Assembly: GCA_963971305.1 (NCBI GenBank)
Contig: OZ020308.1
Coordinates: forward strand, 16,773,092-16,837,091
Direction: 5' to 3'
Length of the DNA stretch: 64,000 bases
Source of the DNA: Arcuatula senhousia
Lineage: Eukaryota; Mollusca; Bivalvia; Mytilida; Mytilidae
Position 1 is the stretch's first letter; every line of letters begins with the position of its first letter. Position numbers and translations under genes: made by a program. Shown piece by piece: positions 902 to 60,853 of the stretch. A model generated the notes under the pieces. It saw nothing but the letters and a program-made list of their open reading frames with translations, was not told where the DNA came from and did no database searches.

Positions 902-3900
902 CCATACACCAGAAGCTTGTTGAATATGTACAGAATGAACCGAAAATTAGGCAAATTATGTATTCTGCAATTAATTCTACTAAAACCTTGGTAGTGATTA
1001 ATATGCCTCACCTGATGCTGACATATTTTGTCAATGCTAGAAAAGACATATAATACAATGCACAAGACCAGATGCAGACTACAACAACATTTCCATAGTT
1101 AGTAAAATTTGTGGTCATATAAAAAAACAGATACAACTCTTGTACTTGTGGATTTTAAGATAAAAACAATCAAGGAGATTAACATCAGAAAGTTGGGACT
1201 GACAATAAAAAATGTTCTTTTAAAATGACAATAAACATATTGGAAGTCATGCAAGAACATTATTGAGACAATTTGAATCATTCAGAAGCTTCTAAAGAAA
1301 TTTCCATATAGTTAACACACTGGTCAGGCAAGTAATTACTAATAGTGAATGTTAACTGCCCAAAGGAAAACTTTTACAAGATTTACAGAACTTGCCTGAA
1401 TTTATGATTACTCTCCAACAGTGAACTAGCCTGAACAATGAAAAGCTAATATGAAGTTACTAGCCAGAATGAATTTTTAGTAAGCCCTGGGCTACCTGGT
1501 TAAGGCAGATGGCCCTAATGCTTTTAATACTGTTGCTTCATTATTATATGTGGGGTATCAATTTTCGTGGTTTTCGTGGGTGGCATATGCATCGACCCAC
1601 AAAATTTGATACCCCTGACAAAAAGGAAATTTAAAATTGATCTATAATATGCTGCAGACTTTAGAACCATGAATTTAAGTATCCACAAACTGGCCCTTTT
1701 TCATCAAACCACGAAAATTTGTACATCAGGTTCATATTTAATAGCTGACAATGTACTCCCTGAAAGAAATTTTAGATAAACAAGAATCTATATTCTATTT
1801 CGTGAAAATTCATTTTCCTTTAGTATCTAGTTATATTAGACCTATGTAAAAGGCAATGTATAACCATCACCCCTTGTCTAGACATACATGTAAGATATAG
1901 TACATGGCAATAACAACATCAAATCTTAATGGGATAGGTTTGGTACATTGCTAAATTCTATTAACAAAGTCAAAACTAAATATCTTCTTTGGCTTTTGAG
2001 GGAGAATAATAATAATGATATTGTAAATGTAAAATTCATTCTAATTTCATATTTGTTTTATTCAAATTTTACAAAGGTACAATATACAGACACCAACAAC
2101 ACCAAATCCTACCTGTTACGACCATACAGGTAGTTATAAACTGTCTGCATGGAGGGTGGCACCACCAAGTTTGGCAATGGTTGGCCATAGTTCGATGAAT
2201 TCCTGTACATATCGTTGTTAGGAAACCAATGTTACGGATATCAATCACAACAGTCAAAATGTTCAAATCAATTGGAAAAATCAACTTAAAATTCTACCGA
2301 AAAATCAAACTGAACAAAATGAAGACAAAATAACGAGAAGTTTGTAGAAGGCACGTGTGAAGGTTTAATGAAGCTTTCTTATGACATAACGATGGAAATC
2401 TAATTTAATTAAAGTTTCCAATTCTCGTCACATGTTGACTATGACATGTATATTAAACCAATCATTTCCTCTGTCAGCTTCTTGTTAATGCTGTTTTAAT
2501 CCACGTTAAACTTCAACTAATTGTTTCCCTAATGATTTCATGAAACAAAGCAGCAAGGCTGCATCATGATCCGTACTGTCAATCATCCTGCTTATAAAGT
2601 CATTTTAATTTGATCAATAAGACTAAAACTGCTTCTTTTTCAAATATTAGGCATATAAAGCGAAAATATGAAGCTCAATTCTGTCTGGAGACTCAAATTT
2701 CATTTCCTTTTATGTCTATTTGACTTTAATAATAGATTAAGTTGTCAGTCTCATAATACATTGTACTAATAATTTAAATTCGAGAAAAATTTGATTCAGT
2801 TTCAATTAAAGGACTCTATAATGGCTTGAACATGTCCATCATTTCCATCCAAGTTGCTTTGCTGTGGTACAACAATTCATACTCTGTTAAAATATAGTAT
2901 ATCCATTCATATAGTCCTAAAATTTATCTTTCTATATTGTGAAACCTGATTTCAATTCCAACTGAAACCTCACTATTCCATTAAACTTATCTTGTTAGCT
3001 ACAATTATTTCCTCATGCAGATTTTTAGATAATGATTTCCATGACATAACTTTCTTCAATCTTGTAATTCTAGTAGATATAGACAAGAAAATCCAATTAT
3101 TTGTCTTCCGAAGGAATAACTATTCAATCAAATATCTATTACATCTCAAACGTATGCAGCAATTAAATTTAAATTGAAAATCATCCTCTTATACGACTTA
3201 AAATTTGCAGCCATTTTTCTAAATCTGGCTCCTTGCTATAAAAGTCTTTATGTTGACCAGTGACATGTTTTGTCTATATTTGTACAGCATACGAGATGTC
3301 TATTTCTTCCACAATTGGAAACAACAGGTGCTCCCAACAGGTGATAATATACTGCTAATTAACTGGCTGATCACATGCCACTAGCATTGGTCAACTTCCA
3401 GTCTCTCATTACCAGAGCTAATAAATAGTCTGCATAAAAATCAATGATATTTTTATAAATGTTTTCCTCTTTATGATGACATTGTATATTTATATACAAA
3501 AGGTATCTTTATTTTCTTCGTCTTTACAACCCACACGTTTTCCGACCGCTAGCTAGCATCAATATCAGAGAAGGAACTTGCTTTTGAAATTGTAATCTTG
3601 GAATGAACAGATTTAAATTGATCCTGAAGACAATGGTTTCTATTATACATCTATCTTTTACATATTTTTCTAATTAATAAAATTTGCATGCTAATCTGAT
3701 TCAAAGATGGATCAGAAAAGGTCTTAAAACATGTCTAAAGCAGCTCAATAATTCATCCTAACACAAGCTATATATGGTAATGTACTTAAAAGGAAGTGGT
3801 GGAAGTAAAATTCTAAATCTCAAATGCATATGGATTATGGATTAATATACATATAAAAAAAAATCTTCTTTGCTTTTAAATGCACATCAATTGTCTAACA

Positions 3901-4049
3901 TCATGAGCTGGAAATCTAAATGACTTGAAGTTTTCATGAAAAGAATGTTTGATAAAAAAAACTCAGACTTTGGTCTTTCAACACAGTCAAGGGTATGATG
4001 ATAAAGTGAAAAATAAATATAGAGGTATAAACATGTGTATCTTGTTCTC
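902..4049. other. Gene-free AT-rich stretch
   Basis: No ORF with recognisable domains and no convincing exon was found on either strand. The stretch is AT-rich with simple runs. The ORFs present are about 60 codons and low in complexity. I see nothing else to annotate. Confidence 0.5.
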
Positions 4050-4995
4050 TTACAAGGACAGACTAGATAATGTGTCTATGAGCCACAGGATGGCCCTCCC
4101 GTTCTTGAAATATCATTGACCCTCAATGTGTATTACCTGGGATATGGACCTTTACCAAGAAATTGATCAAAAGTGTTCATGTGTAAAATATAGGTCGCTG
4201 TGACCTTATTTCTGATGGGTGGTGCCATGTACCAAGACTCATCGAGAAGTGAAATATTATTGACCCCTAACATGTAGTATTCAAGATATGGACCTTAACC
4301 AAGAACTTAACCAAAGTCATTAATGCGTAAATATAGGTCACAGTGACCTCATTTCTAGTGGATGGTGTCACTTTACCCAAGACACATCTAGTGGTGAAAT
4401 ATCATTGACCCCCAACATCCAGTATCCAAGTTATGGACCTTAACCAAGAACTTAACCGAAGTCGTTCATGCATAAAATATAGATCACAGTGACCTAATTT
4501 TTATTGGGTGGTGTCATGTTACCCAAGACACATCTAGTGGTGAAATACCATTGACCATCAACATGTAGTATCTGAGATATGGACCTTAACCAAGAACTTA
4601 ACCAAGTTCATTCATGCGTAAAATATAGGTCACAGTGACCTAATTTCTAGTGGGTGGTGTCACCTTACCTAAGACACATCTAGTAGTGAAATATCATTGA
4701 CCCCCAACATCTAGTATCCAAGTTATGGACCTTAACCAAGAACTTAACCGAAGTCATTCATGCATAAAATATAGGTCACAGTGACCTAATTTCTAGTGGG
4801 TGGTGTAGCCCTACCCAAGACCCATCTGGTGGTGAAATATCGTTGACCCCCAACATCTAGTATCCGAGTAATGGACCTTAACCAAGAACTTAACCAAAGT
4901 GTTACGGACGGACGTACGTACGTACGGACGTACGGACGGACGGACGGACAAGGGTAAAACTATATGTCCGATCCACATACGTGGTCGGGCCATAA
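4050..4995. mobile_element. Bivalve-type element with about 146-bp internal tandem units
   Basis: A phrase containing GGACCTTAACCAAGAACTTA recurs near 4275, 4435, 4581, 4728 and 4874, giving degenerate tandem units of about 146 bp. Each unit also carries TAGGTCACAGTGACC and ACATCTAGT-type blocks. The right end is an ACGGACGG/ACGTACGT-rich stretch (about 4902-4950), then a closing block with CCGATCCACATACGTGG and GGGCCATAAAAA. A reverse-orientation relative lies at about 26881-27775, which supports a dispersed mobile family. No coding capacity is seen, and the exact left boundary is uncertain. Confidence 0.6.
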
Positions 4996-7900: not shown

Positions 7901-10175
7901 AAAAAATTGTGATGGAAATGATAGATTAGTGTCCACTCTATAAAATGACAAATAGAAAATCATATGTCCATGTAGTTGATTAAGAGAAATGTGACATCAA
8001 CAGTTTGGTGGAATAACAGATTCCTCTAGTTTTAACACTTTAACATTGTGACATGTTTGGCCTTTAAAATACTGAAATTGTGCATACAGTAGATAAGCAT
8101 TTTAAAATATTTTATACAGTGGAATTTTAAGGATGTATTCTGGACATGTTTAGGTCTTGTTGAAATCTGATTTGGAAATAACTTTAAAACTGCTCAAAAT
8201 GTACATGTATGTACAATAACAATAGATTTATAAAATATATATGCATATCATAAAACTGTGTGAAAAAAATTATGATTTTTGTCAAGTAGTTTTGGAAAAA
8301 TTGCCATTAAAAATTTATGCCTGAAATTGCTGGTGAATCTGAAAATAGGGATTCATCTCATGAAAAAAATATTCACTAGTCATTAATTTTTTGATTCCTT
8401 ACACTCTTAATTAGATATTTTATTTAATAAGAAACCAAACAACAAATGAACTTGAGGAAATAAAGAAAAACCTGCATTTTTAAGGAAATTTGGAACGACC
8501 AAAAATTTTCTTTATTGCAATTTCATAAGCCAGGACTTCAGGGGTCACTACACTTCTGGATGACAGGGAGAAGTGACAACAAATTAGGGAGAAGTGACAG
8601 GTGCACGACACTAACTACCTTAGAAACAAATTAACTACATGTACATGTAATGATTTTCAATATATTGTATAGGTGTTTGGTAGTGCAAACATCAGGACTT
8701 TCAATAGAAGCAGGAAGGCGGCTATTTTATCTGTCTACTTTTTAGAAATTTCTACCAATCAAATTATCCAATAGGAAAATAGCCACCTACTCTTGAATGA
8801 GAAATGTCTACTTGAAAAAGTGTTGAAAAACCTGTAACATATGAAATCTCAATGAATTTATTAATATGTAAGTTAGTTAGGAGGTGGTATATTCATAACC
8901 ACGGTACCAGGGAGATTGCTAATACAATTGAAGTCTTTATTCAGCAACCATGCATTAATGAAAAAACACACGAAAATGGTATACCCCTGCCGACATCTTA
9001 TAATAGTGAAAGTTCTTACAACAGTTTGCTAAATAAACATGTTAGTTATAATTGGTGAAAGAAAAGAAAAGCACAATCAAGTGCATGTCTAAACCATCAA
9101 TTGATGTAAGCCACATAGCAAATAAAATCGACAAATCATAACCATTTTGTAAAGTACATCGATCTTTCAATGTTTTAATGAAAAAAAAAAAACTAAAAAT
9201 TAGATTTTTTGTTATTAAATTCCTGATTTTCTGTCAAATAATTGGGTGTCAGTTACTCAACTTCAAAGTATCAAACTTGACTTTGTTTGTTGCAGTAAAC
9301 ACAGCTATTTCTCATGAAAAGTCAAGAAAAATGTTACGGAGTGAAGTGCCGAAACCTTAGATATCATATGTAAACCAGGGTAAAATTTAAGATAATCTTC
9401 AACATGGAATTTACTCTGTCCCTACATATCTTTATTTTATTTGTTTATTTTAGTTTCATTGCATTCCAAATAAAATTTATTTTATGTTTGTAAACAAAAG
9501 ACATGCAAAGGAAAAAGACTTCGAGCAAAATCGAAATTTAGGACTTTGCATCGTAAGTTTTGTATGCATATATAAAAAGGAAACAGTACTTATAATTCAT
9601 GATTATTAGATTTCAATGTTTTATTGCTACCTTTCATTAGGAGGGCGACCTGACATTTTCCAAATACATTTTTAATTCGCCATTTTCTGCTTGACGTAAT
9701 GGAAATTGTAAACAACGCCCGTTTCAGGATAGAACACAAATAGATTTCCGGAAAATTAGCATTGATCAAATACAATCTTTTTATTTCGATTCAGATAAAA
9801 TGTTCAACTGAATGGTATAAATCACAGAATGAATTAAAAGATTGTAAACTACAATATTTTTTTTCAAAATTAAACACATTTTGGTTTTGAAAATTATTTA
9901 CAGGGATTAAATAAAACTTGGCCATCCCTGTTATTTACAAGAAACAAAAAAGTTTGAAACTAAGAAAAGCTATTTGTAAACTTAGAATTATCATATCTTC
10001 ACATAAAAAATCATAGACCTGTATATTTGATTTACAGGTCTATGCATAAATTAAAAATTGAGATTGCTAGACATGTCAATATTCCTGAAACAGAACGTGA
10101 TTGCAAAAAAAAAAAATATGCAATACGGATGCAATTGAAGACGAAATTCATGTCACGTTTTAATTGATTGAAATC
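4996..10175. other. Gene-free stretch left of the hammerhead array
   Basis: No exon or gene is supported. A phrase near 6345 (ATATACAGCATTACCA followed by TTTTGGTATTGTATTTTGAA) recurs near 6715, probably an old dispersed-repeat duplication. A perfect 12-bp hairpin is listed separately. The remaining ORFs of 60-80 codons are low-complexity and unconvincing. Confidence 0.45.
10012..10044. repeat. Perfect 12-bp stem hairpin
   Basis: CATAGACCTGTA (10012-10023) is followed after 9 bases by its exact complement TACAGGTCTATG (10033-10044). The core ACAGGTCTATG also occurs singly near 25426 and 58940, so it may belong to a dispersed repeat. No function is assigned. Confidence 0.6.
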
Positions 10176-13100
10176 ATGTCTGGAACTTTGTTGTCATTTG
10201 TATTTCGAACACACGTGAAGGTTAGCACTGCTGGTGGAGTGTAAATTCCCTGAGGTTAGCCCGCTCCGGCACCAACACTTTTGAGTTGGAGAATACATCA
10301 AAGCTTTAAATTATCCGTCTAAATTTCAAAATTGTCAAAACCCTAAGGTTCTTCCTACCCCAGACATAGGTTGAATATCTTAGTAATAATTTGGTTCCCC
10401 AGTTTGGTATTTTTGGTTATACTGTTCTATGCTCTTCATATTCAAACAGTGTTTGGCATTTTCAATATTTTTGGTAGAGCGCCTCTGATGAGTCTCGAAT
10501 AGACGAAACGCGCGTCAGGCGTAGCAAAATTTAATGTCTGGAACTTTGTTGTCAATTGTATTTCGAACACACGTGAAGGTTAGCACTGCTGGTGGAGTGT
10601 AAATTCCCCGAGGTTAGCCCGCTCCGGCACCAACACTTTTGAGTTGGAGAATACATCAAAGCTTTAAATTATCCGTCTAAATTTCAAAATTGTCAAAACC
10701 CTAAGGTTCTTCCTACCCCAGACATAGGTTGAATATCTTAGTAATAATTTGGTTCCCCAGTTTGGTATTTTTGGTTATACTGTTCTATGCTCTTCATATT
10801 CATACAGTGTTTGGCATTTTCAATATTTTTGGTAGAGCGCCTCTGATGAGTCTCGAATAGACGAAACGCGCGTCAGGCGTAGCAAAATTTAATGTCTGGA
10901 ACTTTGTTGTCATTTGTATTTCGAACACACGTGAAGGTTAGCACTGCTGGTGGAGTGTAAATTCCCCGAGGTTAGCCCGCTCCGGCACCAACACTTTTGA
11001 GTTGGAGAATACATCAAAGCTTTAAATTATCCGTCTAAATTTCAAAATTGTCAAAACCCTAAGGTTCTTCCTACCCCAGACATAGGTTGAATATCTTAGT
11101 AATAATTTGGTTCCCCAGTTTGGTATTTTTGGTTATACTGTTCTATTCTCTTCATATTCATACAGTGTTTGGCATTTTCAATATTTTTGGTAGAGCGCCT
11201 CTGATGAGTCTCGAATAGACGAAACGCGCGTCAGGCGTAGCAAAATTTAATGTCTGGAACTTTGTTGTCATTTGTATTTCGAACACACGTGAAGGTTAGC
11301 ACTGCTGGTGGAGTGTAAATTCCCCGAGGTTAGCCCGCTCCGGCACCAACACTTTTGAGTTGGAGAATACATCAAAGCTTTAAATTATCCGTCTAAATTT
11401 CAAAATTGTCAAAACCCTAAGGTTCTTCCTACCCCAGACATAGGTTGAATATCTTAGTAATAATTTGGTTCCCCAGTTTGGTATTTTTGGTTATACTGTT
11501 CTATGCTCTTCATATTCATACAGTGTTTGGCATTTTCAATATTTTTGGTAGAGCGCCTCTGATGAGTCTCGAATAGACGAAACGCGCGTCAGGCGTAGCA
11601 AAATTTAATGTCTGGAACTTTGTTGTCATTTGTATTTCGAACACACGTGAAGGTTAGCACTGCTGGTGGAGTGTAAATTCCCCGAGGTTAGCCCGCTCCG
11701 GCACCAACACTTTTGAGTTGGAGAATACATCAAAGCTTTAAATTATCCGTCTAAATTTCAAAATTGTCAAAACCCTAAGGTTCTTCCTACCCCAGACATA
11801 GGTTGAATATCTTAGTAATAATTTGGTTCCCCAGTTTGGTATTTTTGGTTATACTGTTCTATGCTCTTCATATTCATACAGTGTTTGGCATTTTCAATAT
11901 TTTTGGTAGAGCGCCTCTGATGAGTCTCGAATAGACGAAACGCGCGTCAGGCGTAGCAAAATTTAATGTCTGGAACTTTGTTGTCATTTGTATTTCGAAC
12001 ACACGTGAAGGTTAGCACTGCTGGTGGAGTGTAAATTCCCCGAGGTTAGCCCGCTCCGGCACCAACACTTTTGAGTTGGAGAATACATCAAAGCTTTAAA
12101 TTATCCGTCTAAATTTCAAAATTGTCAAAACCCTAAGGTTCTTCCTACCCCAGACATAGGTTGAATATCTTAGTAATAATTTGGTTCCCCAGTTTGGTAT
12201 TTTTGGTTATACTGTTCTATGCTCTTCATATTCATACAGTGTTTGGCATTTTCAATATTTTTGGTAGAGCGCCTCTGATGAGTCTCGAATAGACGAAACG
12301 CGCGTCAGGCGTAGCAAAATTTAATGTCTGGAACTTTGTTGTCATTTGTATTTCGAACACACGTGAAGGTTAGCACTGCTGGTGGAGTGTAAATTCCCCG
12401 AGGTTAGCCCGCTCCGGCACCAACACTTTTGAGTTGGAGAATACATCAAAGCTTTAAATTATCCGTCTAAATTTCAAAATTGTCAAAACCCTAAGGTTCT
12501 TCCTACCCCAGACATAGGTTGAATATCTTAGTAATAATTTGGTTCCCCAGTTTGGTATTTTTGGTTATACTGTTCTATGCTCTTCATATTCATACAGTGT
12601 TTGGCATTTTCAATATTTTTGGTAGAGCGCCTCTGATGAGTCTCGAATAGACGAAACGCGCGTCAGGCGTAGCAAAATTTAATGTCTGGAACTTTGTTGT
12701 CATTTGTATTTCGAACACACGTGAAGGTTAGCACTGCTGGTGGAGTGTAAATTCCCCGAGGTTAGCCCGCTCCGGCACCAACACTTTTGAGTTGGAGAAT
12801 ACATCAAAGCTTTAAATTATCCGTCTAAATTTCAAAATTGTCAAAACCCTAAGGTTCTTCCTACCCCAGACATAGGTTGAATATCTTAGTAATAATTTGG
12901 TTCCCCAGTTTGGTATTTTTGGTTATACTGTTCTATGCTCTTCATATTCATACAGTGTTTGGCATTTTCAATATTTTTGGTAGAGCGCCTCTGATGAGTC
13001 TCGAATAGACGAAACGCGCGTCAGGCGTAGCAAAATTTAATGTCTGGAACTTTGTTGTCATTTGTATTTCGAACACACGTGAAGGTTAGCACTGCTGGTG

Positions 13101-15218
13101 GAGTGTAAATTCCCCGAGGTTAGCCCGCTCCGGCACCAACACTTTTGAGTTGGAGAATACATCAAAGCTTTAAATTATCCGTCTAAATTTCAAAATTGTC
13201 AAAACCCTAAGGTTCTTCCTACCCCAGACATAGGTTGAATATCTTAGTAATAATTTGGTTCCCCAGTTTGGTATTTTTGGTTATACTGTTCTATGCTCTT
13301 CATATTCATACAGTGTTTGGCATTTTCAATATTTTTGGTAGAGCGCCTCTGATGAGTCTCGAATAGACGAAACGCGCGTCAGGCGTAGCAAAATTTAATG
13401 TCTGGAACTTTGTTGTCATTTGTATTTCGAACACACGTGAAGGTTAGCACTGCTGGTGGAGTGTAAATTCCCCGAGGTTAGCCCGCTCCGGCACCAACAC
13501 TTTTGAGTTGGAGAATACATCAAAGCTTTAAATTATCCGTCTAAATTTCAAAATTGTCAAAACCCTAAGGTTCTTCCTACCCCAGACATAGGTTGAATAT
13601 CTTAGTAATAATTTGGTTCCCCAGTTTGGTATTTTTGGTTATACTGTTCTATGCTCTTCATATTCATACAGTGTTTGGCATTTTCAATATTTTTGGTAGA
13701 GCGCCTCTGATGAGTCTCGAATAGACGAAACGCGCGTCAGGCGTAGCAAAATTTAATGTCTGGAACTTTGTTGTCATTTGTATTTCGAACACACGTGAAG
13801 GTTAGCACTGCTGGTGGAGTGTAAATTCCCCGAGGTTAGCCCGCTCCGGCACCAACACTTTTGAGTTGGAGAATACATCAAAGCTTTAAATTATCCGTCT
13901 AAATTTCAAAATTGTCAAAACCCTAAGGTTCTTCCTACCCCAGACATAGGTTGAATATCTTAGTAATAATTTGGTTCCCCAGTTTGGTATTTTTGGTTAT
14001 ACTGTTCTATGCTCTTCATATTCATACAGTGTTTGGCATTTTCAATATTTTTGGTAGAGCGCCTCTGATGAGTCTCGAATAGACGAAACGCGCGTCAGGC
14101 GTAGCAAAATTTAATGTCTGGAACTTTGTTGTCATTTGTATTTCGAACACACGTGAAGGTTAGCACTGCTGGTGGAGTGTAAATTCCCCGAGGTTAGCCC
14201 GCTCCGGCACCAACACTTTTGAGTTGGAGAATACATCAAAGCTTTAAATTATCCGTCTAAATTTCAAAATTGTCAAAACCCTAAGGTTCTTCCTACCCCA
14301 GACATAGGTTGAATATCTTAGTAATAATTTGGTTCCCCAGTTTGGTATTTTTGGTTATACTGTTCTATGCTCTTCATATTCATACAGTGTTTGGCATTTT
14401 CAATATTTTTGGTAGAGCGCCTCTGATGAGTCTCGAATAGACGAAACGCGCGTCAGGCGTAGCAAAATTTAATGTCTGGAACTTTGTTGTCATTTGTATT
14501 TCGAACACACGTGAAGGTTAGCACTGCTGGTGGAGTGTAAATTCCCCGAGGTTAGCCCGCTCCGGCACCAACACTTTTGAGTTGGAGAATACATCAAAGC
14601 TTTAAATTATCCGTCTAAATTTCAAAATTGTCAAAACCCTAAGGTTCTTCCTACCCCAGACATAGGTTGAATATCTTAGTAATAATTTGGTTCCCCAGTT
14701 TGGTATTTTTGGTTATACTGTTCTATGCTCTTCATATTCATACAGTGTTTGGCATTTTCAATATTTTTGGTAGAGCGCCTCTGATGAGTCTCGAATAGAC
14801 GAAACGCGCGTCAGGCGTAGCAAAATTTAATGTCTGGAACTTTGTTGTCATTTGTATTTCGAACACACGTGAAGGTTAGCACTGCTGGTGGAGTGTAAAT
14901 TCCCCGAGGTTAGCCCGCTCCGGCACCAACACTTTTGAGTTGGAGAATACATCAAAGCTTTAAATTATCCGTCTAAATTTCAAAATTGTCAAAACCCTAA
15001 GGTTCTTCCTACCCCAGACATAGGTTGAATATCTTAGTAATAATTTGGTTCCCCAGTTTGGTATTTTTGGTTATACTGTTCTATGCTCTTCATATTCATA
15101 CAGTGTTTGGCATTTTCAATATTTTTGGTAGAGCGCCTCTGATGAGTCTCGAATAGACGAAACGCGCGTCAGGCGTAGCAAAATTTAATGTCTGGAACTT
15201 TGTTGTCATTTGTATTTC
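10176..15218 (+). repeat. 358-bp hammerhead-ribozyme tandem array, 14 units plus a 31-bp stub
   Basis: The word ATGTCTGGAACTTTG begins at 10176 and recurs exactly every 358 bases to 15188, giving 14 complete units. A 31-base partial unit then ends in CATTTGTATTTC at 15218, after which the sequence becomes unrelated. Copies 4-14 look identical by eye. The differences I see are in copies 1-3: T for C near 10251 and A for T near 10446 in copy 1, CAATTG for CATTTG near 10554 in copy 2, and T for G near 11146 in copy 3. Every unit has a hammerhead ribozyme core near its 3' side. Tandem hammerhead repeats in animals are known from satellite DNAs and from retrozymes, which are non-autonomous retroelements propagated through small circular RNAs. 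The array fits that class. No ORF crosses the unit and no clear target-site duplication flanks the array. Confidence 0.95.
10479..10522 (+). ncRNA. Type I hammerhead self-cleaving ribozyme (first of 14)
   Basis: The conserved core reads in order: stem I 5' strand GCGCCT (10479-10484), CTGATGA (10485-10491), stem II GTCT-loop CGAAT-AGAC (10492-10504), GAAA (10505-10508), stem III ACGCGCGT (10508-10515), cleavage-site C (10516), and stem I 3' strand AGGCGT (10517-10522). Stem I forms six pairs, one of them G-U. All invariant core bases of the family are present, and the cleavage triplet is GTC with predicted cleavage between 10516 and 10517. Beyond stem I, ATTTT upstream can pair with AAAAT downstream across an internal loop, as in natural type I forms. 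Stem III is very short and self-complementary, a known sign of hammerheads that cleave as dimers. The same motif starts at 10837, 11195, 11553, 11911, 12269, 12627, 12985, 13343, 13701, 14059, 14417, 14775 and 15133. Cleavage would release 358-nt monomers. Confidence 0.92.
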
Positions 15219-15559: not shown

Positions 15560-16275
15560 AATTATTGACTATTTGTTAGCTTTAAAGGACCATAACCTCA
15601 ATAAGGGGTCATCTGACAGCTTTGATCCAATGGAAACTTTTTAAGAGCATAATGATCTGAAGGTTTAAGCAAGTAACAGCTTTTCTCTATCTGCAATAGT
15701 TTTCATTCTATAGGCCAAAAAAAACACGAAAAACTAAATTGTTGACATGTTTGTTTAAAGGGACATAAGGGACGGACCATTTAACTTGAAGGGGGGGGTC
15801 TTGGTTTTTTGTTTTGATCAGAAAATTTTTTTCCGCGCAGAGCGCGGACAAAATATTTATTTTTCGAAGGCGTCACGACAGAATATTTTTTTCATTATCA
15901 GCACTATTTTTTTATAGCAGAAATCCTTCTTCAGAATATTTTTTTTCTTACCCTCAGCTGCCAAAATATTTTTTTTTCATCAAAAATAATTTTCAGAAAT
16001 TTTTTTAGGAAAAAACCAAGGCCCCCCCTTCAAGTTAAATGGTCGGTCCCTAACCCAAATAAGGGGTCATCTGACAGCTTCGCCGGACCCAATGAAGACT
16101 TTGATAGAGCTTAATGAGATGACGGTTTAAGATAACATCAGCTTTTCTCTATCTGCAATAGTTTTCATTTTATAAGGCAAAACTATAAAAATGCTATTTT
16201 TGTCCATCAAAGGGCCATAACCCCTGTCAGGGGCCATCTGACAACTTCGACCCAATGGAGACCTTTATAGGTCTT
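15560..16275 (-). mobile_element. AGCTCACCTG-family internal fragment, reversed
   Basis: Read on the minus strand, this matches the internal units of the family seen at 51212-52389. Shared phrases are AAGGGGTCATCTGACAGCTT, TTTTCTCTATCTGCAATAG and TTTTCATTCTATAGGCC. Both terminal blocks are missing, so this is a truncated copy. A TAA-flanked MITE interrupts it at 15769-16050. On either side of the MITE the host repeat continues, with one TAA duplicated. Confidence 0.65.
15769..16050. mobile_element. Harbinger-like MITE with 29-bp TIRs and TAA TSD
   Basis: The left end GGGACGGACCATTTAACTTG continues into a G-run. The right end is its complement, finishing AAATGGTCGGTCCC, with one mismatch over about 29 bases. 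TAA flanks both ends (15766-15768 and 16051-16053). A 3-bp TWA-type duplication is typical of PIF/Harbinger elements. The interior is built of T-rich blocks such as AATATTTTTTTC and encodes no transposase. The 64-codon ORF inside is an artefact of the T-rich repeats. Confidence 0.8.
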
Positions 16276-16830
16276 TTGATGTTGAAGAAGGATGGCTGCA
16301 ACATATTATCTCTTTCTTCTACAGTTTTTGATTTACAAACTAAAAACAGTAATTTGACCCCTGGTCTTTTTTTATATTTGTCATATTTGTCACATATGGA
16401 CGAGATTTTTCAACAAGAAGTTGGCATTCAAATGGGCACAAATTGTGCCCTCTCCTCGCCGACTTGTTTTTATACTCTTAAGAGACTGAATTTCTTCAGC
16501 AACTCTTTAAGAACAAGAAGATGAAAGAAGCTAGATCCTTTAATCTCACTTTAAGATATATTGATGATGTCCTCTCTGTCAACACCGCTTTGTTTGCCAG
16601 ATGGATTCCTTCAATTCATCCTCCAGAGTTAGAGATAAAAGAAACCACAGAATCTACTTGCTTCATTTCTTTCTTGGATTTGCATCTCGAATTTGACTCG
16701 GGTGGTCATCTCAGTATAGAAATATACGACAAAAGGGACGATTTAAATTTTCAAATAATTCATTTACCTAATCTGGAAAGTAGCTTACCCTACTCACCAG
16801 CATATGGGGTGTATATTTCAAATGTCTAAG
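16276..16830 (+). pseudogene. Broken reverse transcriptase fragment (YIDD type, possibly Penelope-like)
   Basis: Two overlapping reading frames together cover an RT palm region. The first (to about 16450) has a block ending FQQEVGIQMGTNCA. The second has ADLFLYS, then RYIDDVLSVN (YIDD catalytic motif, near 16555), and ends near SPAYGVYIS. A one-base deletion near 16450 moves the frame, and an in-frame TAA lies at 16479-16481, so the gene is dead. N-terminal and C-terminal parts are missing. The motif order resembles Penelope-like RTs and a related metazoan group, but I cannot settle the clade. It lies about 1 kb downstream of the hammerhead array. Confidence 0.7.
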
Positions 16831-17924: not shown

Positions 17925-20294
17925 TTTGTAAATAAATAAATAAATAAATATCTTTATTTCCTAATCATAGGGCCCATCATTGGGCATATAAATCAATCTA
18001 CAAACATATAAGTCATACAAGTACAGAACAATGATTAAGAATGATTGGAACACAAATAGGCACAATTATTATAGAGAGAGAGAGAGCCAGGTGGGGTAAG
18101 GGGAGTAACTCTATCTAATATTACATCTACATATTAATTATGTTACTTGTACAATCTATATCAATTATTTATAGTATTTTGTCTTATATAATAAAGATCT
18201 TCTATCAGATTACATAAATCATTAATGAATTCAAGATCTTCATTGATCATAAACCAAGAAAATAATTGTGAGTTGTTTAATTTTTTTAAATTTACATGCT
18301 GTTTTAGTAGTTTTTCTATAAAAGGTTTTCTTTTATGCTCATATGCATTGCATTCAAGCAAAAAGTGTACTTCGCTTTCAATTGAGATATTATTGCAATA
18401 TTTGCAGATTCTCTCATCCCTTGGCAGAACCTTAAATTTACCATTTTCTAGTACTCTTTCATGTCTTCCTGTTTCTATTCTAAGTATATGATTACTAGTC
18501 CTGAATTTTGCTAAAGTTTTTCTTTTTTCCATCTTAATAACAAGGTATGGTTCAGGAGTGAAATTGTTTTTAAATGTAAAGTAGGTATCCAGTTTTCCTT
18601 CCTTATTAGTTAAATAACCTCTTTTAATCTCTTGCCAAGAATCAAGAAAGTTTATTTTTAAACATTTAAGTAATTGAGATTTGAAACTTCCATGACTTAG
18701 CTTCTTACAATATGATAGATCAAGATTTAAAAGTCTAGCAAAAAGCAATATATTGCTGTACCAGGAAGAGCATTGGGGATCATTTTTATATTCTTGTAAA
18801 GCACATGTAAGTAGTTCTGAAGGTAAGCTTTCAAGTCTATGCCAACACATAAATATGTTACATAGAATATTTAAATACAAAGGGTATCTACCAAGTTCTG
18901 AGAGAACCGCAATATTGGTACACGTTTTTGATACCCCAAGAATATATTTACAAAATTTAATGTTTAGCTTTTCAGGTTCCCAGTCCTTAAAAATATTGTA
19001 AAGGGACATTTCTTTTCTTTTAGGGGTAATATTTATGGTTCCCCATATTTCACTTCCATATAAGGCTATTGATTGGTTTTATACAGTGATCAAATATATG
19101 AAGAAATGTTTTAATACTAGGATCTGCTGATTTCATATCTTTGTATAGTTTAAAACAAGCTTTCAGACTTTTTTGATATAGATGCTTCCTTGCTTCAATA
19201 AATTTACCTGTGTTATCTAACATAATTCCAAGATATTTGTATTGTTTAACAGATTCTATAATTTCATTTCCAATATTAAATTTTTCTTCAATGAGTCTCC
19301 CATTATTGTTAAAAATGATAATTTTAGTTTTCTTACAGTTAACTTCTAAACACCAGTCATTACAATAATTTGATAATACATCAAGTTTGTGTTGGAGAGC
19401 ACTTTTTGAATCAGACATAAGTACAAGATCATCAGCATATAAAAGACATGGTATGGGTGTATCATTAAGGTTCACTGAATCTGTCTTTTCTAGCAATAGC
19501 TTAGGTAAATCATTGACAAAAAATTTAAACAGGTTAAGGCTTAGTACATCGCCCTGTCTGACTCCTACTTCTGACGTAAAAAAAATGGTAATTTTGTTTT
19601 CGGTTCGTACACATAGTTCATCATTCCAATACATGGATTTCAATATCTTATAAAAATTCCCATTTATGTTAGCCTTTTGAAGTTTATACATAATTCCAGT
19701 ATGAATAACCTTATCAAACGCTTTGCGAAAGTCTACAAAGCAAGTATACAATTTTTTACATCCTTTCTTCAGATATTTTTGTATAATGCATCTTAACACA
19801 AATATGTGATCAGAGGTGCGACATTTCTTTGAAAAGCCAATTTGTGTTTTGTGTATAATATTATTATCTTCTAAATAGGTATCAAATCTCATGTTCATAA
19901 TCATATTGAACAGTTTCCCTATGCTGTTATTGATGGCAATGCCCCTATAATTTTCTGGTTTGTTGGGATCATCAGATTTATAAATAGGTGTGATAAAGCT
20001 TTTTGACCAATGTAATGGGTAATTTCCAGATAATAAAACTGCATTAAAAAGTTTAGCAATGCTTGAGCTAATATAACTTTGTGAGGCTTTCAGCATTTCA
20101 TTACTTATATTGTCCAAACCAGGACTCTTTCCATTTTTTAGCCTCGAGATGGCTTTGTGTACCTCACTTAATGAAATTTTGAAATCTAGAGAGGAAAAAC
20201 TTTTAGGTCCTGCCTCTAATGTTTGAAGTTTTGTTTTTAGGTCTTCAATTTTTTTCCTAAAATTATTAGATATAGAAGATAAATTAGTAAATTT
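17925..20294 (-). mobile_element. 5'-truncated non-LTR retrotransposon (LINE)
   Basis: Read on the minus strand, the element begins abruptly inside the RT domain near 20294 and runs through RT and a C-terminal region. It ends after about 200 bases of 3' UTR in an (ATTT)n-type microsatellite tail (AAATAAATAAATAAATA on the + strand near 17930-17960). Truncation at the 5' end and a simple-repeat tail are standard signs of target-primed insertion. No endonuclease or ORF1 part remains. Confidence 0.85.
18161..20294 (-). pseudogene. LINE reverse transcriptase ORF, frameshifted
   Basis: The open frame 20117-19050 (355 codons from its first Met, and open upstream to about 20290) has RT motifs PENYRGIAI (about residues 54-62), DFRKAFD (129-135), RQGDVLSLNLF (187-197) and the catalytic YADD (227-230). 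Near 19075 the frame breaks just where the family normally continues LYGSEIWG, and that phrase is present in another frame. Translation resumes there and runs to 18161, ending in a C-terminal domain with a C-x2-C...H-x4-C cluster (ICKYC...EVHFLLEC). A single small indel therefore separates two otherwise good halves, suggesting a fairly young insertion. The clade is not assigned. Confidence 0.85.
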
Positions 20295-20587
20295 GTAGGG
20301 CGGAGCTACAATGCGGTCCCATTACTCGTAAAATTTTGGAGCAACGCCATAAGCGAATCACACCGGGCTTACCTTTATTCATTTGACAGTGAACCATTTT
20401 GAAGCTTTGTGCGAGTTAGCCTTAGAAATTAGATTTGCTCCAATAGGACTAATGTAGCTCTTTCCAGCCAGTTAAAGGACGTTTACAATGGTTCAAAATC
20501 AGCTGTATGCAGGCTAATCCGGATGAGTTTTAAGCTATTGCTGTGGGTACAAGAACACATGGTAAAAAAACCTTTTAGAAAACACAA
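20295..20587. other. Unassigned segment
   Basis: No homology is recognised between the LINE 5' end and the next repeat copy. A 61-codon ORF starting at 20523 runs into the repeat and is not credible. Confidence 0.4.
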
Positions 20588-20882: not shown

Positions 20883-21610
20883 CAATACAAATACCTCCTG
20901 CATGGCCACGAAATTGAGCATGTTGACTCCACCAAATACCTAGGTGTGACTATTCAAGCCAATTAAAAAATGGGACAGTCACATAAACAACATCACCAAT
21001 AAGGCTAACAAACTTTAGGGTTCCTACGCAGAAACATCAACATTAGTTCCACCACAGTAAAAACGCAGGCATACAAATCACTAGTTAGACCTTTAGTGAA
21101 GTATGCCTGTTGCGTATGGGACCCATACACACAGGAAGATATTCAAAAAATCGAAAAAGTCCAGCGCAAGGCTGCTAGGTATGTCACTAGTCGCTCCATA
21201 ATACATCAAGCGTTAGTGACATGATCCCCGATCTAAACTGAAGATCCTTAGCAGACCGTAGAACAGACTCCCGTTTAACCAGTCTATATAAAATATCAAA
21301 CGAAAAAGTTGCTATCCCCACGGAAAATAGGCTTATTAAACCAAACCAGCTCACTAGACACATGCAATGTCTTCACTGAAATCCGACAACAATCCTTTTT
21401 CCCAGAACAATTCGAAACTGGAACAACTTTCTCTGGACACTGTCCTGAGCGACTCAGTTGAGTCATTCAAGGCTTCTGTCTCAGTAATCCAACATATATT
21501 TTAAAAATGTATTATGTTTTTATTAACCTTCCTCTTGCGCTGTGCTCACATTGGCGGAATTTATTCAATATATTGAAGGCGGCCAATCATACAGTAGAGG
21601 TAGAAAATTC
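20883..21610 (+). pseudogene. LINE RT C-terminal fragment inside a repeat
   Basis: Conceptual translation in shifting frames gives TKYLGVTIQ, then KWDSHINNITNKANK, then AYKSLVRPLVKYACCVWDPY, then KVQRKAARYVTSR. This is the usual order behind the YADD motif in jockey/CR1-like LINE polymerases. Frameshifts occur near 20950 and 21015, and stop codons interrupt further on (near 21230). The flanking repeat resumes on both sides at matching positions (after CAGCATCA and before TCTACAAAAGTCTCC), so this is a discrete insertion. Confidence 0.75.
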
Positions 21611-21738
21611 TACAAAAGTCTCCATTTAGTCGAAGTTGTCAGATGACCCCTTATAGGGGTTACAGCCCCTTAAAGGTGAAAAATATCGTTTTTTATGTTT
21701 TTTGGCTTATAGAATGAAAACTATTGCAGATAGAGAAA

Positions 21739-22357
21739 TATAGCTTCTACAACGCGATCGAGTTGATAATGGAATTTCTCTAATTTTCGTCCGATTTATC
21801 AACCTCTCAACCAGTGTTGGAAAAATATTTCTCACCTCTAGAGAGAAAATTGTTCTCAGCGTAATTGCACGTGCAATTGGTGAGCGTTTTTTGCAATTTC
21901 TTACCTGTAAACATTAGAGAAAAACCTTCTACAACTTAATTCTCGATGATTATGGAATTTCTAACATCTCGAGAAATAAATTTGATATTTTAATCGCTCG
22001 GCAAGCCTCGCCATTAAAATAATCAAATTTATTTCTCTCGATGTTAGAAATTCCATTATCAACTCGATCGCGTTGTAGAAGCTATATTTCTAACATCGAG
22101 AGAAATAAATTTGATTATTTTAATGGCGAGGCTTGCCGAGCGATTAAAATATCAAATTTATTTCTCGAGATGTTAGAAATTCCATAATCATCGAGAATTA
22201 AGTTGTAGAAGGTTTTTCTCTAATGTTTACAGGTAAGAAATTGCAAAAAACGCTCACCAATTGCACGTGCAATTACGCTGAGAACAATTTTCTCTCTAGA
22301 GGTGAGAAATATTTTTCCAACACTGGTTGAGAGGTTGATAAATCGGACGAAAATTAG
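21739..22357. mobile_element. 307-bp element with an inverted copy of itself inserted
   Basis: The outer element spans 21739-22357 and is flanked by AGAAA at 21734-21738 and 22358-22362. Inside it, at 21780-22086, lies a second copy in reverse orientation, flanked by TTTCT at 21775-21779 and 22087-22091, which is AGAAA on the other strand. Removing the inner copy and one duplication leaves 307 bp, exactly the inner length. The two copies look identical by eye, giving arms of 276 bp around a 36-bp spacer. Each copy has an internal foldback (from CTTCTACAAC to GTTGTAGAAG) plus a tail of about 150 bp, and no ORF. The ends TATAGC...ATTAG are not inverted repeats, so the transposition class is unclear. 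Confidence 0.88.
21780..22086 (-). mobile_element. Inner copy of the 307-bp foldback element
   Basis: In its own orientation it runs TATAGCTTCTACAAC to GAAAATTAG and is bounded by AGAAA on both sides. It appears to have inserted at an AGAAA site that occurs naturally 36 bases into the older copy. Confidence 0.85.
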
Positions 22358-22789
22358 AGAAAAGCTGTTGCTTGCTTAAATGTTCAGTTCATTTAGCTCT
22401 ACAAAAGCATGCACAGGATTGAAGTTGTCAGACGAACACTCAAAGGGATTATAGCCCCTAAATTAACATGTTTTTATGTTTTTGGCATATATAATGAAAA
22501 CTATAGCAGATAAAGAAAAGTGGTTGCTTGCTTAAATGTTCAGTTCATTAAGCTCTTAACAAAAGTCTCTATAGAATCAAAGTGTTCAGACGGCCCTTAA
22601 AATAATATTTTGCACGTTTTTGGCATACAGACTGAAAACTATTGCTGAAAGAGAAAAGCTGTTGCTTGCTTAAATGTTCAGCTTATTTAGCTCTACAAAG
22701 TTCTTCATAGGGTTGACATCAAGACCAGGTGAGCGATTCAGGCTCATGGGAGCCTCTTGTTTTATAAATGATTCTGCTAATATATTTAA

Positions 22790-26880: not shown

Positions 26881-27775
26881 AAGTTTAATTACCTTCACAC
26901 TAGGCGAGGGGGTCAGCGATACAACTACATTTGTAGATGTGTATTGGGTAGGCCCTTAACAACCCACTTGAAATGAGGTCACTGTGACCCATATTTTCTA
27001 CATTAACTTAACTTGGGTTATCTTCTTGGTTAAGGTCCGTTTGTCTTTGTCTTTTTGGAATAATGATGTTTGATTCAGATTGCCTATACAGTACACCTTT
27101 GCTTCTTTCTTAGATACACCACCCTCTAGAAATGAGGTCACTGCAGCCTATATCTTATGCATGAATGGTTGTGATTAGGTTCTTGGTTAAGGTCTATAAC
27201 TTTTAAAAGTAGTATTCCACCTACACGTAAGAATCATGCAAAATTGAAGAAAAGTGATTCATCGATAAAAAGGCTACAGTGGTTTATTTTTAACGTAAGA
27301 TAGTTCAAAGTATATAAAATAAGAAATAAATAACAATTTGCTCATAACTGTCTGGTCCTGGGAGAAATCTTGTCATTTTGATACAATGGTTTCTATTTAA
27401 ATTATTGACAATTTTAAGAGTTATCTCCCTTTCTTACATTTTCCCAATACATTCTATACATTTTTTCTCTCAGGACCAGAGCTAGTTTGAAAAAGAGCAC
27501 AAAAGATCAAAGCAGGATGCTAGTAGGAGTAACATATCAAAAATAAATTGGTGTAGGCTTTCCATCCATGAATCACTCTTTGTATGATTCTTATAAAAAG
27601 TGTCTATGTTTCAGATACTACATGTTGGAGGTCAATGATATTTCACCACTAGATGTGCCTATGACACCACCCACCACAAATTAAGTCACCGCAACCTAAA
27701 TATTATGAATGAACAAAATTGATTTAGGTCCATATTCCTGTGGCTCATAGACACATTTTCTAGTTTGTATTTGAA
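26881..27775 (-). mobile_element. Reverse copy of the element seen at 4050-4995
   Basis: On the minus strand it shows CACAGTGACCTCATTT, AACCAAGAA...AAC and ACATCTAGTGGTGAAATATC blocks, and starts with CTATGAGCCACAGGA, matching the element near 4075. It is more diverged, and the middle (about 27215-27600) is replaced by unrelated sequence. Confidence 0.5.
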
Positions 27776-44250: not shown

Positions 44251-45658
44251 GTCTCGCCTGGGGAGACATAGGTATTACTTTCCGCCGGCGGCGGCGACGT
44301 AAACTTTTTTGTAAGACTTTTGTGGAAAATGAATTCCAAGAAAAGTAGAGTAGCTAGGCATCTGATATTTGGTATACAGACAGTACAGGTTATGGTCTAC
44401 GCAACTGGCACCATGCCGTTTGACCCTGACCCCAATTTCATGGTCCAGCGACTCTGTGAACTTAGATGTTTTTTCGGGCCAAAAAAACCCTTTGTAAGAC
44501 TTTTGTGGAAAATGAATTCCAAGAAAAGTAGAGTAGCTAGACATCTGATATTTGGTATACAGACAGTACAGGTTATGGTCTACGCAACTAGCACCATGCC
44601 ATTTGACCTTGACCCCAATTTCATGGTTCACTAACTCTGTGAACTTAGATGTTTTTTCGGGCCAAAATACCCCTTTGTAAGACTTTTGTGGAAAATGAAT
44701 GAAGTGAAAACTATAATAGGGAGGCATCTGATAGCTGGTATACAGACACTTTTGGTTATGGTCTATCCAACCGGTGCCATGCCGTTTGACCCTGACCCCA
44801 TTTTCATGGTTCACTGACTCTGTGAACTAAGATTATTTTTGGAGCAAAAAAACTTCTTTGTAAGACTTTTGTGGAAAATGAATTAAGTGAAAAGTATAAT
44901 AGTTAGGCATCTGATATTTGGTATACATACATTTAGGGCTATGGTCTATGCAACTGGTGCCATGCCGTTTGACCTTGACCCATTTTCATGGTTCAGTGAC
45001 TATATAGACTTAGATGATTTGTAAGACTTTTGTGGAAAGTGAATTAAGTGAAAAGTATAATAGCTAGGCATCTGATATCTGGTATACAGTCACCTGGAGT
45101 TATGGTCCATGCAACTGAAACCATGTCCTGTGACCTTGACACAATTTACATGGTTCAGTGACTCTGTCGACTTAGATTTTTTGGAACAATTAAAACTTTT
45201 GTGGAAAATAAATTAAGTTAAAAGTATAATAGCTAGGCATCTGATATTTGGTATACAGACATTCAGGGTTTTGGTCCACACAACTGCACCATGTTGTGTG
45301 ACCATGACCCCATTTTCATGGTTCAGTGACTTTGTGAACTTAGATGATTTTTGGGTGGAAAATGAGTTAAGTGAAAAGTATAATATTATAGCTAGGTATC
45401 TGATATTTGGGGATTATGGTATACACAACTGACGTCACCTTGTCATGTGACTTTGACCTCATTTTCATGATTGAATGACTTAGTTAATGTTGGTCTTTTT
45501 TCATTGTTTCTCAATAACTATGGTATCTAGAACACACTTCAGACATTTTTGAGATGGTTAAATGGAATTCTGTCACCTGTCACATGGCCTTGACCTTAAG
45601 TTTTCCAAAGGCCCGCTAGACCTTCAATTAGTTCTGTGATGGCGCCGACAGGCGAGAC
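44251..45658. mobile_element. GTCTCGCCTG-family element with 183-bp internal units
   Basis: The left end GTCTCGCCTG (44251-44260) and right end CAGGCGAGAC (45649-45658) are exact inverted repeats. The interior is a tandem run in which GTAAGACTTTTGTGGAAA begins at 44311, 44494, 44677 and 44860 (exactly 183 bp apart), then at 45021, with decay to the right. Each unit has ATCTGATATTTGGTATACAG and a TTTGACC(C/T)TGACCCC block. The 179-codon minus-strand ORF and the 104-codon plus-strand ORF are translations of these units and not genes. A GC-rich GCCGGCGGCGGCG patch follows the left end. Confidence 0.78.
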
Positions 45659-51211: not shown

Positions 51212-52389
51212 AGCTCACCTGGCCAAAGGCCATGTGAGCTATTGCCATCACTTGGCGTCCGTCGTCGTCGTCCGTCGTCGTCGTCGTCGTTAACTTTTCT
51301 TCAAACTTCTTCTCCTCTGAAACGGCTGAACAGATTCGAACCAAATTTGGTCTGATGGTACCTTAGGGTATCCCCCACAGAACTGATGTTGGGATTTTTG
51401 ATTCGTCGAAAAACATGGCCGCCGTTGCTAAAAATAGACCAGGGGGGTCAGACTACTGTTTTTGGCTTGTAAATCAAAAAGTATAAGAGATAGATGAAAT
51501 CTGATGCCACCCTACTGCTTCCGCATCAAAAGCTCTACAAAAGTCTCCATTTGGTCCAAGTTGTCAGATGATCCCTTATAGGGGTTACAGCCCCTTAAAG
51601 GTGAAAAATAATGTTTTTTTCATATTTTTGCCCTATAGTATGAAAACTATTGCAGATAGAGAAAAGCTGTTGCTTGCTTAAATGTTCAGCTCGTTTAGCT
51701 GTACAAAAGTCTCCATAGGGTTGAAGTTGTCAGATGAACCCTTATAGGGGTTACGGCCCCTGAAATAATGTTTTTTCATGTTTTTGGCCTATTGAATGAA
51801 AACTATTGCAGATAGAGAGAAGCTGTTGCTTGCTTAAATGTTCAGCTCAATTAGCTCTACAAAAGTCTCCTTAGGGTCGAAGTTGTCAGATGACCCCTTA
51901 TAGGGGTCACGGCCCCTAAAATAATGTTTTTTCATTTTTTTGGCCTATAGAAAGAAAACTATTGCAGATAGAGAAAAGCTGTTGCTTGCTTAAATGTTCA
52001 GCTCATTTAGCTCTACAAAAGTCTCCATAGGATCAAAGTAGTCTGATGACCCTTAACAGGGCTTACGGCCCCTAAAATAATGGTTTTTCGTGTTTTTGGC
52101 CTATAGAATGAAACTATAGCAGATAGAGAAAAGCTGTTGCTTGCTTAAATGTTCAGCGCATAAAGCTCTACAAAAGTCTCCATAGGGTTGAAGTTGTCAG
52201 ATGACCCCTTACAGGGGTTACGGCCCCTAAAATAACGGTTTTTCGTGTTTTTGGCCTATAGAATGAAAACTATAGTAGATAAAGAAAAAACTGTTGCTTG
52301 CTTAAATGTTCAGCTCATTTAGCTCTACAAAATATAGGGTTGACATCAAGACCAGGTGAGCGATTTAGGCTCCTGGGAGCCTCTTGTTA
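51212..52389 (+). mobile_element. AGCTCACCTG-family copy, complete, with 156-bp internal units
   Basis: The left end AGCTCACCTGGCC and the right CAGGTGAGCGATTTAGG are inverted. The right end closes with GGCTCCTGGGAGCCTC, a palindrome. After the left block comes a GTCGTCGTCCGTCG tract. The interior has tandem units of about 156 bp: AGCTGTTGCTTGCTTAAATG begins near 51665, 51821, 51977 and 52132. There is no ORF. It is the best-preserved copy in the window and the reference for the other three. Confidence 0.8.
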
Positions 52390-54247: not shown

Positions 54248-54471
54248 AAATACAAATGACAACAAAGTTCCAGACAATAAATTTTGCTACGCCTGACGCG
54301 CGTTTCGTCTATTCAAGACTCATCAGAGGCGCTCTACCAAAAATATTGAAAATGCCAAACACTGTATGAATATGAAGAGCATAGAACAGTATAACCAAAA
54401 ATACCAAACTGGGGAACCAAATTATTACTAAGATATTCAACCTATGTCTGGGGTAGGAAGAACCTTAGGGT
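54248..54471 (-). repeat. Single truncated copy of the 358-bp hammerhead unit, antisense to the septin gene
   Basis: On the minus strand this runs from ACCCTAAGGTTCTTCC through the hammerhead to GTCATTTGTATTT, 224 bp of the 358-bp unit. The part of the unit with the AACACACGTGAAGG and CCGCTCCGGCACC blocks is absent. The few differences from the array include TTGAAT for TCGAAT in stem-loop II and ATTG for AATG after the ribozyme. Its downstream end falls at nearly the same unit position (CATTTGTATTT) as the right end of the array at 15218. Confidence 0.9.
54289..54332 (-). ncRNA. Hammerhead ribozyme core, isolated intronic copy
   Basis: All elements are intact on the minus strand: GCGCCT (54332-54327), CTGATGA (54326-54320), GTCT-TGAAT-AGAC (54319-54307), GAAA, the palindromic ACGCGCGT (54303-54296), C17 at 54295, and AGGCGT (54294-54289). 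The only core-region change from the array is one base in the stem II loop. Because it is antisense, it would not cleave the septin pre-mRNA. It could act only in a minus-strand transcript. Confidence 0.85.
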
Positions 54472-59927: not shown

Positions 59928-60853
59928 ATACCCCCCGCAAATAAAGTTTGGGGGGGTATATAGGAAACACCCTGTCTGTCTGTCCGTCCGTCTGTCCACA
60001 TAACTCGTAAGCGCTTCTCCTCCTAAACCGCTTGAAGGATTTTGATGAAACTTTACCTAAAGGAAGTACATCATATGTAGATGTGCATGAAGAATTTTCA
60101 TTGCTCTTGAATATCATTCAGGGGAGATAATTGGACTTAGACTTTTTGAATACATTATTCAATGGGAGACCTCGTAAGCGCAACTCCTCCTAAACCGCTC
60201 AAAGGATTTTGATGAAACTTGACATGAAGGCAGTACATCATATGTAGATGTGCATGAAGAATTTTCATCGCAATCAGACATCATTTAGGAGAGATAATTG
60301 GACTTAGACTTTTTAAATACATTATACAATGGGAAACCTCGTAAGCGCTTCTCCTCCTAAAATGCTTGAAGGATTTTGATGAAACTTAAGCCAAAGGAAG
60401 AACATCATATGTAGATGTGCATGAAGAATTTTCATCACAATCAGACATCATTCAGGGGAGATAATTGGACTTAGACTTTTTAAAAACATTATTCAATGGG
60501 AAACCTCATAAGCGCTTCTCCTCCTAAAACGCTTGAAGGATTTTGATGAAACTTACCCTTAAGGAAGAACATCATATGTAGATGTGCATGAAGAATTTTC
60601 ATCGCAATCAGACATCATTCAGGGGAGATAATTGGACTTAGACTTTTTAAATGCATTATTCAATGGGAAACCTCGTAAGCGCAACTTGTCTTAAAATGTT
60701 GGATGGGTTTTGTTGAAACTTTACTTGAAGATAGTACATCATCTGTAGATGTGCATGAAGAATTTGTATTGCTCTCAGTTATCATCGAGGGAAAATAACT
60801 GGATATGAGATTTTTCTTTTACAGTACAGAGTCCAATATGAAGCGGGGGGTAT
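59928..60853. mobile_element. ATACCCCCCGC-family element with 167-bp internal units
   Basis: ATACCCCCCGC (59928-59938) and GCGGGGGGTAT (60843-60853) are exact inverted ends. Inside, CTCGTAAGCGC or a close variant starts at 60004, 60171, 60338, 60505 and 60672, exactly 167 bp apart. Each unit repeats GGATTTTGATGAAACTT, CATCATATGTAGATGTGCAT and GGGGAGATAATTGGACTTAG. A CTGTCTGTCTGTCCGTCCG tract follows the left end. It is non-coding. Confidence 0.78.

Follow-up and report, generated by a model that had tools for sequence, protein, structure and literature searches.

Small tandem repeats that carry hammerhead ribozymes have been described in animals and plants, and the comparisons made here refer to the portions of the cited texts that were covered. 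In the mussel Mytilus galloprovincialis, non-long-terminal-repeat (non-LTR) retrozymes with a type I hammerhead were described in 2020 as thousands of copies of ~350-390-bp repeats, and self-cutting and the formation of circular RNA are known for them (Cervera and de la Pena, 2020; PMC7229834). Satellite or retrozyme repeats of salamanders and newts (330-350 bp) contain a hammerhead with a weak single-pair stem III and a palindromic tetraloop favouring dimeric cutting; this amphibian form is poor alone and efficient as a dimer (PMC7229834). A 64,000-bp stretch of the genome of Arcuatula senhousia (contig OZ020308.1, positions 16,773,092 to 16,837,091; hereafter the window) holds a tandem array of 358-bp units that is very probably a young insertion of a non-autonomous metazoan non-LTR retrozyme in a mytilid genome, with an RNA-copying cycle of the kind proposed below.

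The A. senhousia element resembles the M. galloprovincialis retrozymes in ribozyme type, repeat length, copy number and mussel host, a likeness of description and not of sequence. The counts differ, with ~5000 type I hammerheads reported for M. galloprovincialis (PMC7229834) against 14,344 exact ribozyme cores here, and a common internal 3' end, as found below, is not mentioned in the covered text of that paper, whose figures and supplements lay outside this scope. The amphibian repeats are likewise similar by description, in size and in the form of stem III, and differ in host. In Penelope-like elements, as here, a genomic tail is explained by reverse transcription that starts internally (PMC11167929), copies occur in tandem and some carry type I hammerheads, whereas the retrozyme unit codes for no protein. 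Plant LTR retrozymes are also non-autonomous hammerhead elements with circular RNA; their ribozyme is of type III, and they have LTRs, a primer-binding site, a polypurine tract and 4-bp duplications (PMC4918200; PMC7761336). No LTR, primer-binding site or polypurine tract was noticed in the 358-bp unit, no search aimed at them having been made. Of the features used to define metazoan non-LTR retrozymes, a type I hammerhead within tandem repeats of 150-450 bp, a GC content below 50% and many dispersed insertions are present. Elements of this group are also characterised by unit-length linear and circular RNA and by target-site duplications that, where they occur, exceed 4 bp. The kind of element is already published, and the host is probably new for it.

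The array and its ribozymes

The array was delimited by Tandem Repeats Finder (TRF; period 358, 14.1 copies, 99% matches). Its description in an earlier, sequence-only reading as a nearly perfect tandem array of fourteen 358-bp units was borne out by TRF and by unit-by-unit comparison (Table 1). Units 4-14 are identical (11 units), and the whole array contains four substitutions, all private, with two in unit 1 and one each in units 2 and 3. All four thus lie in the three 5'-most units (10176-11249), for which a chance of ~0.002-0.004 was calculated post hoc; they may reflect later exchange, or joining from other templates. GC content is 0.39-0.40 in the two 2-kb bins mostly or fully filled by the array. 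The longest ATG frames on the circular unit are of 22 (+) and 37 (-) amino acids, and the mean in shuffled sequences is 39.

The same reading had proposed scoring with a covariance model. With the Rfam model RF00163 (Hammerhead_1; gathering score 34 bits), matches were obtained in all 14 units at 38.5 bits (E 3.4e-6 each, window search). The complete set of conserved type I bases that had been claimed is present in every unit: the sequence and the Rfam alignment show CUGAUGA, a 4-bp stem II (GUCU/AGAC), GAAA and GUC, with three helices. The six pairs claimed for stem I are also there, although one of them is G-U and five are Watson-Crick, and the same predicted cut, between 10516 and 10517, was obtained. 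A second short helix, TTTTG/CAAAA, can be read from the sequence outside stem I.

Stem III is minimal. Within one molecule, ACGCGCGU can make just two pairs, A-U and C-G, closing a GCGC loop, but two molecules can pair over 8 bp through the same self-complementary segment (computed duplex energy -13.3 kcal/mol). Dimeric cutting is therefore likely on this model, and a single-molecule hammerhead with so small a stem III probably cuts poorly. As RNA, the 358-bp unit is not unusually stable (z = +0.84). No other Rfam family was found to E 5 on either strand within 10100-11300, a segment that includes three of the hammerheads. A derivation from RNA polymerase III transcripts, as a short interspersed nuclear element, was considered and rejected: the best A and B boxes, scanned with the promoter consensus, were no better than in shuffles. 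The unit was also rejected as a Penelope-like element in itself, as its short frames hold no open reading frame (ORF) for a reverse transcriptase or GIY-YIG domain.

Table 1. Retrozyme features located in the window (positions of the window, 5' to 3')
Feature	Positions	Strand	Remarks
Head-to-tail tandem array of 358-bp retrozyme units (14 complete, then 31 bp)	10176..15218	+	Single insertion; 3' end at unit position 31
Type I hammerhead of unit 1	10479..10522	+	RF00163 38.5 bits; predicted cut 10516/10517
Type I hammerheads of units 2-14, spaced 358 bp (10837-10880, 11195-11238 ... 15133-15176)	10837..15176	+	13 RF00163 matches, 38.5 bits
Terminal 31 bp of a 15th unit, final letters TATTTC	15188..15218	+	3' end common to most examined insertions
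Second, dispersed, 5'-truncated retrozyme copy (224 bp, 0.63 unit: positions 165-358 + 1-30)	54248..54471	-	2 differences in 224 bp against the array unit
Type I hammerhead of the dispersed copy, 15th in the window	54289..54332	-	RF00163 36.5 bits

Dispersed copies, their ends and their template

The host genome assembly (1,036,387,356 bases, 1.04 Gb; the window lies on its sequence C6) contains 14,344 occurrences of the exact 32-base ribozyme core, allowing two free positions, and the reversed control contains none. A 24-mer of the element's 3' end has 13,687 matches. A genome-wide Rfam search that scored 74 of 145,145 candidates returned 30 loci, all of which hold the unit family of the array at best-match identities of 75-98%. 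Retrozyme loci are spread over many chromosomes, and on sequence C1 the first 100 listed matches of the 24-mer (16.3 Mb) make up 54 loci, 37 of them with a single match. The window array is one insertion within a family of thousands of dispersed copies. The sequence-only reading had recognized tandem hammerhead DNA of retrozyme type, and this agrees with the sequence, Rfam and the genome-wide anatomy; it missed the 224-bp minus-strand copy, the dispersed family and the common 3' end.

Two further observations concern the forms that copies take. In two long arrays (G000:C10 2690809-2703676 and C2 51317647-51326792), six fetched 3-kb pieces were all wholly repeat, with 8.5 units each, the stretches between some pieces being unseen. 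A single fragment of 0.39 unit recurs with identical flanks in three places (L029, L033 and L045), and is perhaps carried by another dispersed repeat.

Capture of a viroid-like or delta-like circular RNA agent would explain a small, non-coding, ribozyme-bearing sequence. However, a ribozyme is found on one strand only (none on the minus strand with Rfam to E 5), there is no ORF beyond the short frames given above, and thousands of copies lie in the genome; this scarcely credible reading was rejected. Words of the 358-bp unit had no matches in IMG/VR or in GTDB genome contigs.

Insertion ends were compared in two samples. The first comprised 54 distinct insertions from 50 fetched loci (L001-L050, some overlapping; chosen by Rfam match, best scores first) and the two window copies, after 8 rows touching a locus edge, 2 pieces below 60 bp, 4 duplicates and 1 row with a short flank had been dropped. 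The second comprised 20 loci selected among the core matches by their position on C1, arrays and some other loci being skipped, with all 22 pieces counted. The 3' end fell at unit positions 28-36 in 39 of the 54 insertions (16 at position 31 and 10 at 30) and at this usual site in 19 of the 22 pieces. Only one of the 54 had its 5' end at positions 28-36; 5' ends were evenly distributed over the unit (13, 15, 14 and 12 in four bins). Insertion lengths formed a continuum between 0.20 and 14.09 units; 25 of the 54 insertions were below one unit and 12 above two, and sub-unit insertions with the usual 3' end numbered 18. Both window copies end at the usual site (the array at 31, the dispersed copy at 30).

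Word counts over the whole genome extend this comparison. Among 24-mers ending at the usual 3' site, 55.9% continue into the next 8 nt (7,652/13,687), compared with 87.0% of mid-unit control 24-mers (9,513/10,939). A very rough estimate from these counts is ~3,900-4,900 insertion ends genome-wide, a figure that varies with the conservation assumed for the next 8 nt inside copies, taken as 78% in the fetched loci (63 internal and 1 misclassed, of 82) or 87% (control).

The usual 3' end lies 47-48 nt past the predicted ribozyme cut, and 53 of the 54 pieces cross that cut, a count favoured by the omission of pieces below 60 bp. The remaining one lies on the minus strand in L046. Of the omitted pieces, the two short ones (39 and 35 bp) have the usual 3' end and stop short of the cut. 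No insertion began or ended within 3 nt of the cut in the first sample (0/54) or the second (0/22); therefore, the linear 358-nt monomer is not the usual template. Given the position of the 3' end, such a monomer would allow only copies of 47-48 nt. Fixed start, variable extent and continuity of the template across the cut are read from the genomic copies. A continuous template is either a circle or an uncut multimer, and we infer the circle.

The common 3' end also bears on whether the array is real and whether it is an ordinary satellite. Eleven identical units would be indistinguishable to an assembler without spanning reads, so that the run could have been inflated. This is quite improbable, since variants mark units 1-3, neither flank is derived from the repeat, the array ends at the 3' site usual for the family, and similar runs exist elsewhere (for example C1 from 16295801, with 18 matches among those listed). 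Amplification of one chance insertion by unequal crossing-over or slippage, with the ribozyme a relic, would accord with the identity of units 4-14 and the confinement of all four substitutions to units 1-3, and subset-shared variants in older arrays show that DNA-level exchange happens. Such a satellite is nevertheless improbable, as dispersed sub-unit copies with a common 3' end on many chromosomes, and so many intact ribozyme cores, would be unexpected.

Relations among units were examined in a tree of 91 of the 123 units, from which four loci overlapping or adjoining L011 and L015 in the same stretches were omitted. Of the 15 multi-unit loci listed, 13 have their units grouped together, and the 16 locus labels need 15 changes on the tree, which is the minimum (shuffled mean 56.0). 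One grouped locus, L039, consists of two separate pieces and is no array, and in L024, one of the two that fail to group, one unit belongs to a separate, inverted piece. Relative to the family consensus, the window array has 11 differences common to its 14 units and 4 that are each private to a single unit; no difference is restricted to a subset of units. The array shows the greatest uniformity among the 20 rows compared, with a mean distance of 0.0016 where the next lowest value is 0.0112, and therefore appears to be young. Units of one array seem mostly to come from one parent unit, a pattern that fits laps round one circle, and DNA-level exchange later reshuffled some arrays.

These relations bear on the other continuous template, a linear uncut multimeric transcript copied from the same fixed start with random stops. 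It would be equally continuous across the cut, and insertion by an anole Penelope-like element in vitro is independent of ribozyme cleavage (PMC11167929). A multimer transcribed from a mixed array would carry mixtures, against which stand the single parentage of most arrays and the lack of subset-shared variants in the window array; one from a uniform array would not. We consider the multimer unlikely, though well worth keeping in view, and proceed with the circle.

Proposed copying cycle and helper enzyme

The cycle that we propose would begin with transcription of the array, as published for the retrozymes of mussel, coral and axolotl. The hammerheads would then cut the transcript into 358-nt units, as also published, probably as dimers given the minimal stem III, and a host RNA ligase would circularise the monomers, as in published retrozyme work. 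The reverse transcriptase of another element would start at one internal site, ~47 nt past the cut (position 30/31), and copy round the circle for 0.2-14 laps before joining to target DNA. Our tentative proposal, held at rather less than even confidence, is that a Penelope-type reverse transcriptase copies the circular RNA from this start over many laps, and that lap number, not DNA-level amplification, sets the length of an array at its birth.

Penelope-like elements have been named as a strong helper candidate for animal retrozymes (PMC7229834), and a Penelope-like enzyme starts copying at internal RNA sites, leaving a genomic tail (PMC11167929). In the host genome, GIY-YIG matches numbered 140 among 150 scored of 1,106 candidates. 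Several occupy frames 900-1,087 codons long and are arranged as tandem or inverted pairs, and one translated Penelope-like piece holds reverse transcriptase and GIY-YIG domains, recognized by eye, in a single frame. Of the 12 Penelope-like loci examined, out of the 140 matches, none contained an Rfam hammerhead and none was similar to the 358-bp unit above chance. Nothing found ties Penelope-like elements firmly to the retrozyme.

At L059 (~1825-1870), a hammerhead-like stretch with a broken core (ATGATGG..GAAAGCGCTA between AAAGTC and GACTTT) was seen by eye upstream of a Penelope-like ORF; it has no Rfam match. At L070:704-1141, two retrozyme pieces lie head to head, joined at their 5' ends with a 3-bp overlap, both usual 3' ends facing outward. 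Such a pair is expected from copying of both nicked strands, as described for the anole Penelope-like enzyme (PMC11167929), and is a single case.

Target-site duplications were sought by comparing flanks. In the first sample, own pairs scored 7.07 and mismatched pairs 6.40, with three outliers above the 99.9% control level; in the second, the scores were 6.27 and 6.17. Candidates were found in three of the 54 insertions (~20-29 bp with mismatches), namely at L024, where the flank is repetitive, L001, and L047, where the 3' end is unusual. That the best candidates are ~20 bp or more, and that most insertions have none, speaks against a Penelope helper.

Mobilisation by a reverse transcriptase of long interspersed nuclear element (LINE) type is a substantial possibility, if one that we doubt. 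Two of the candidate duplications (~20-23 bp, L024 and L001) would suit it, LINE-like duplications of 15 bp are reported for Nematostella repeats (PMC4918200), and the window itself contains a LINE with an RVT_1 domain (18161-20321, minus strand; a TTTA simple repeat was seen by eye beyond its 3' end). Against it, no poly-A or simple-repeat tail occurs among the listed junctions, no tail is shared with the window LINE (score 14; shuffled mean 17), and a Penelope-like element has been described to initiate internally without homology at the ends (PMC11167929).

Several results weigh against the proposed cycle. Other 3' ends occur in 15 of the 54 insertions and 3 of the 22 pieces, most insertions in both samples lack an apparent target-site duplication, and terminal end words in the fetched loci (10/92) fall below the genome-wide estimate, overlapping pieces of long arrays being over-represented there. 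The four-unit array L044 fails to group in the tree. Subset-shared variants occur in 10 of the 12 distinct arrays of at least three units, and gene conversion could contribute to the grouping within arrays. In ViennaRNA, the fold with ribozyme stems I and II lies ~6 kcal/mol above the best fold, for both circle and linear RNA; the model gave no stem III and takes no account of tertiary contacts or dimers. A hairpin predicted to span positions 19-43, whose loop would hold the start site, is not supported by covariation (77.8% of cells paired compared with 76.7% in shuffles) and is not claimed.

Neighbouring repeats and significance

Other repeats surround the array. An animal reverse-transcriptase element remnant (YIDDVL type by eye) lies ~1 kb downstream on the same strand (16189-16829), with 546 homologues for its portion 16482-16826; elsewhere, retrozyme pieces at L028 and L039 lie inside or beside ORFs of this kind. 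A 156-bp tandem repeat family has five copies at 51531-52332 and relatives at 15570-15734, 16045-16328, 21609-21738 and 22355-22716, some of them shortly 3' of the retrozyme array. Further tandem arrays occur at 4106-4900 (146-bp unit, with relatives at 26934-27202 and 27602-27730), 44308-45385 (183-bp), 60004-60765 (167-bp) and 61846-62294 (56-bp). An ORF at 49158-50363 matches part of septin-2B-like proteins of Mytilus californianus, M. coruscus and M. edulis (44-54% over 43-59% of the ORF length), which points to a probable mytilid host, perhaps from outside Mytilus.

Published models have circles of animal retrozyme RNA copied by a helper whose identity is unknown, with no conserved motif in the repeats to reveal it (PMC7761336). 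The combination of fixed start, variable extent and continuity across the cut was not found in the covered text of PMC7229834, PMC7761336, PMC4918200, PMC3846280 and PMC11167929; supplements and subscription papers, outside this scope, may hold it. The genomic insertions record that copying mainly starts at one site, that it runs for any distance and that the ribozyme cut does not interrupt the template. Position 30/31 is thus a concrete start site for identifying the helper enzyme, and laps round an RNA circle would give satellites of this tandem type a simple origin. Multi-lap copying by a Penelope-type enzyme, if true, would account for the tandem arrangement of hammerhead satellites in animals and indicate the helper long sought for them.

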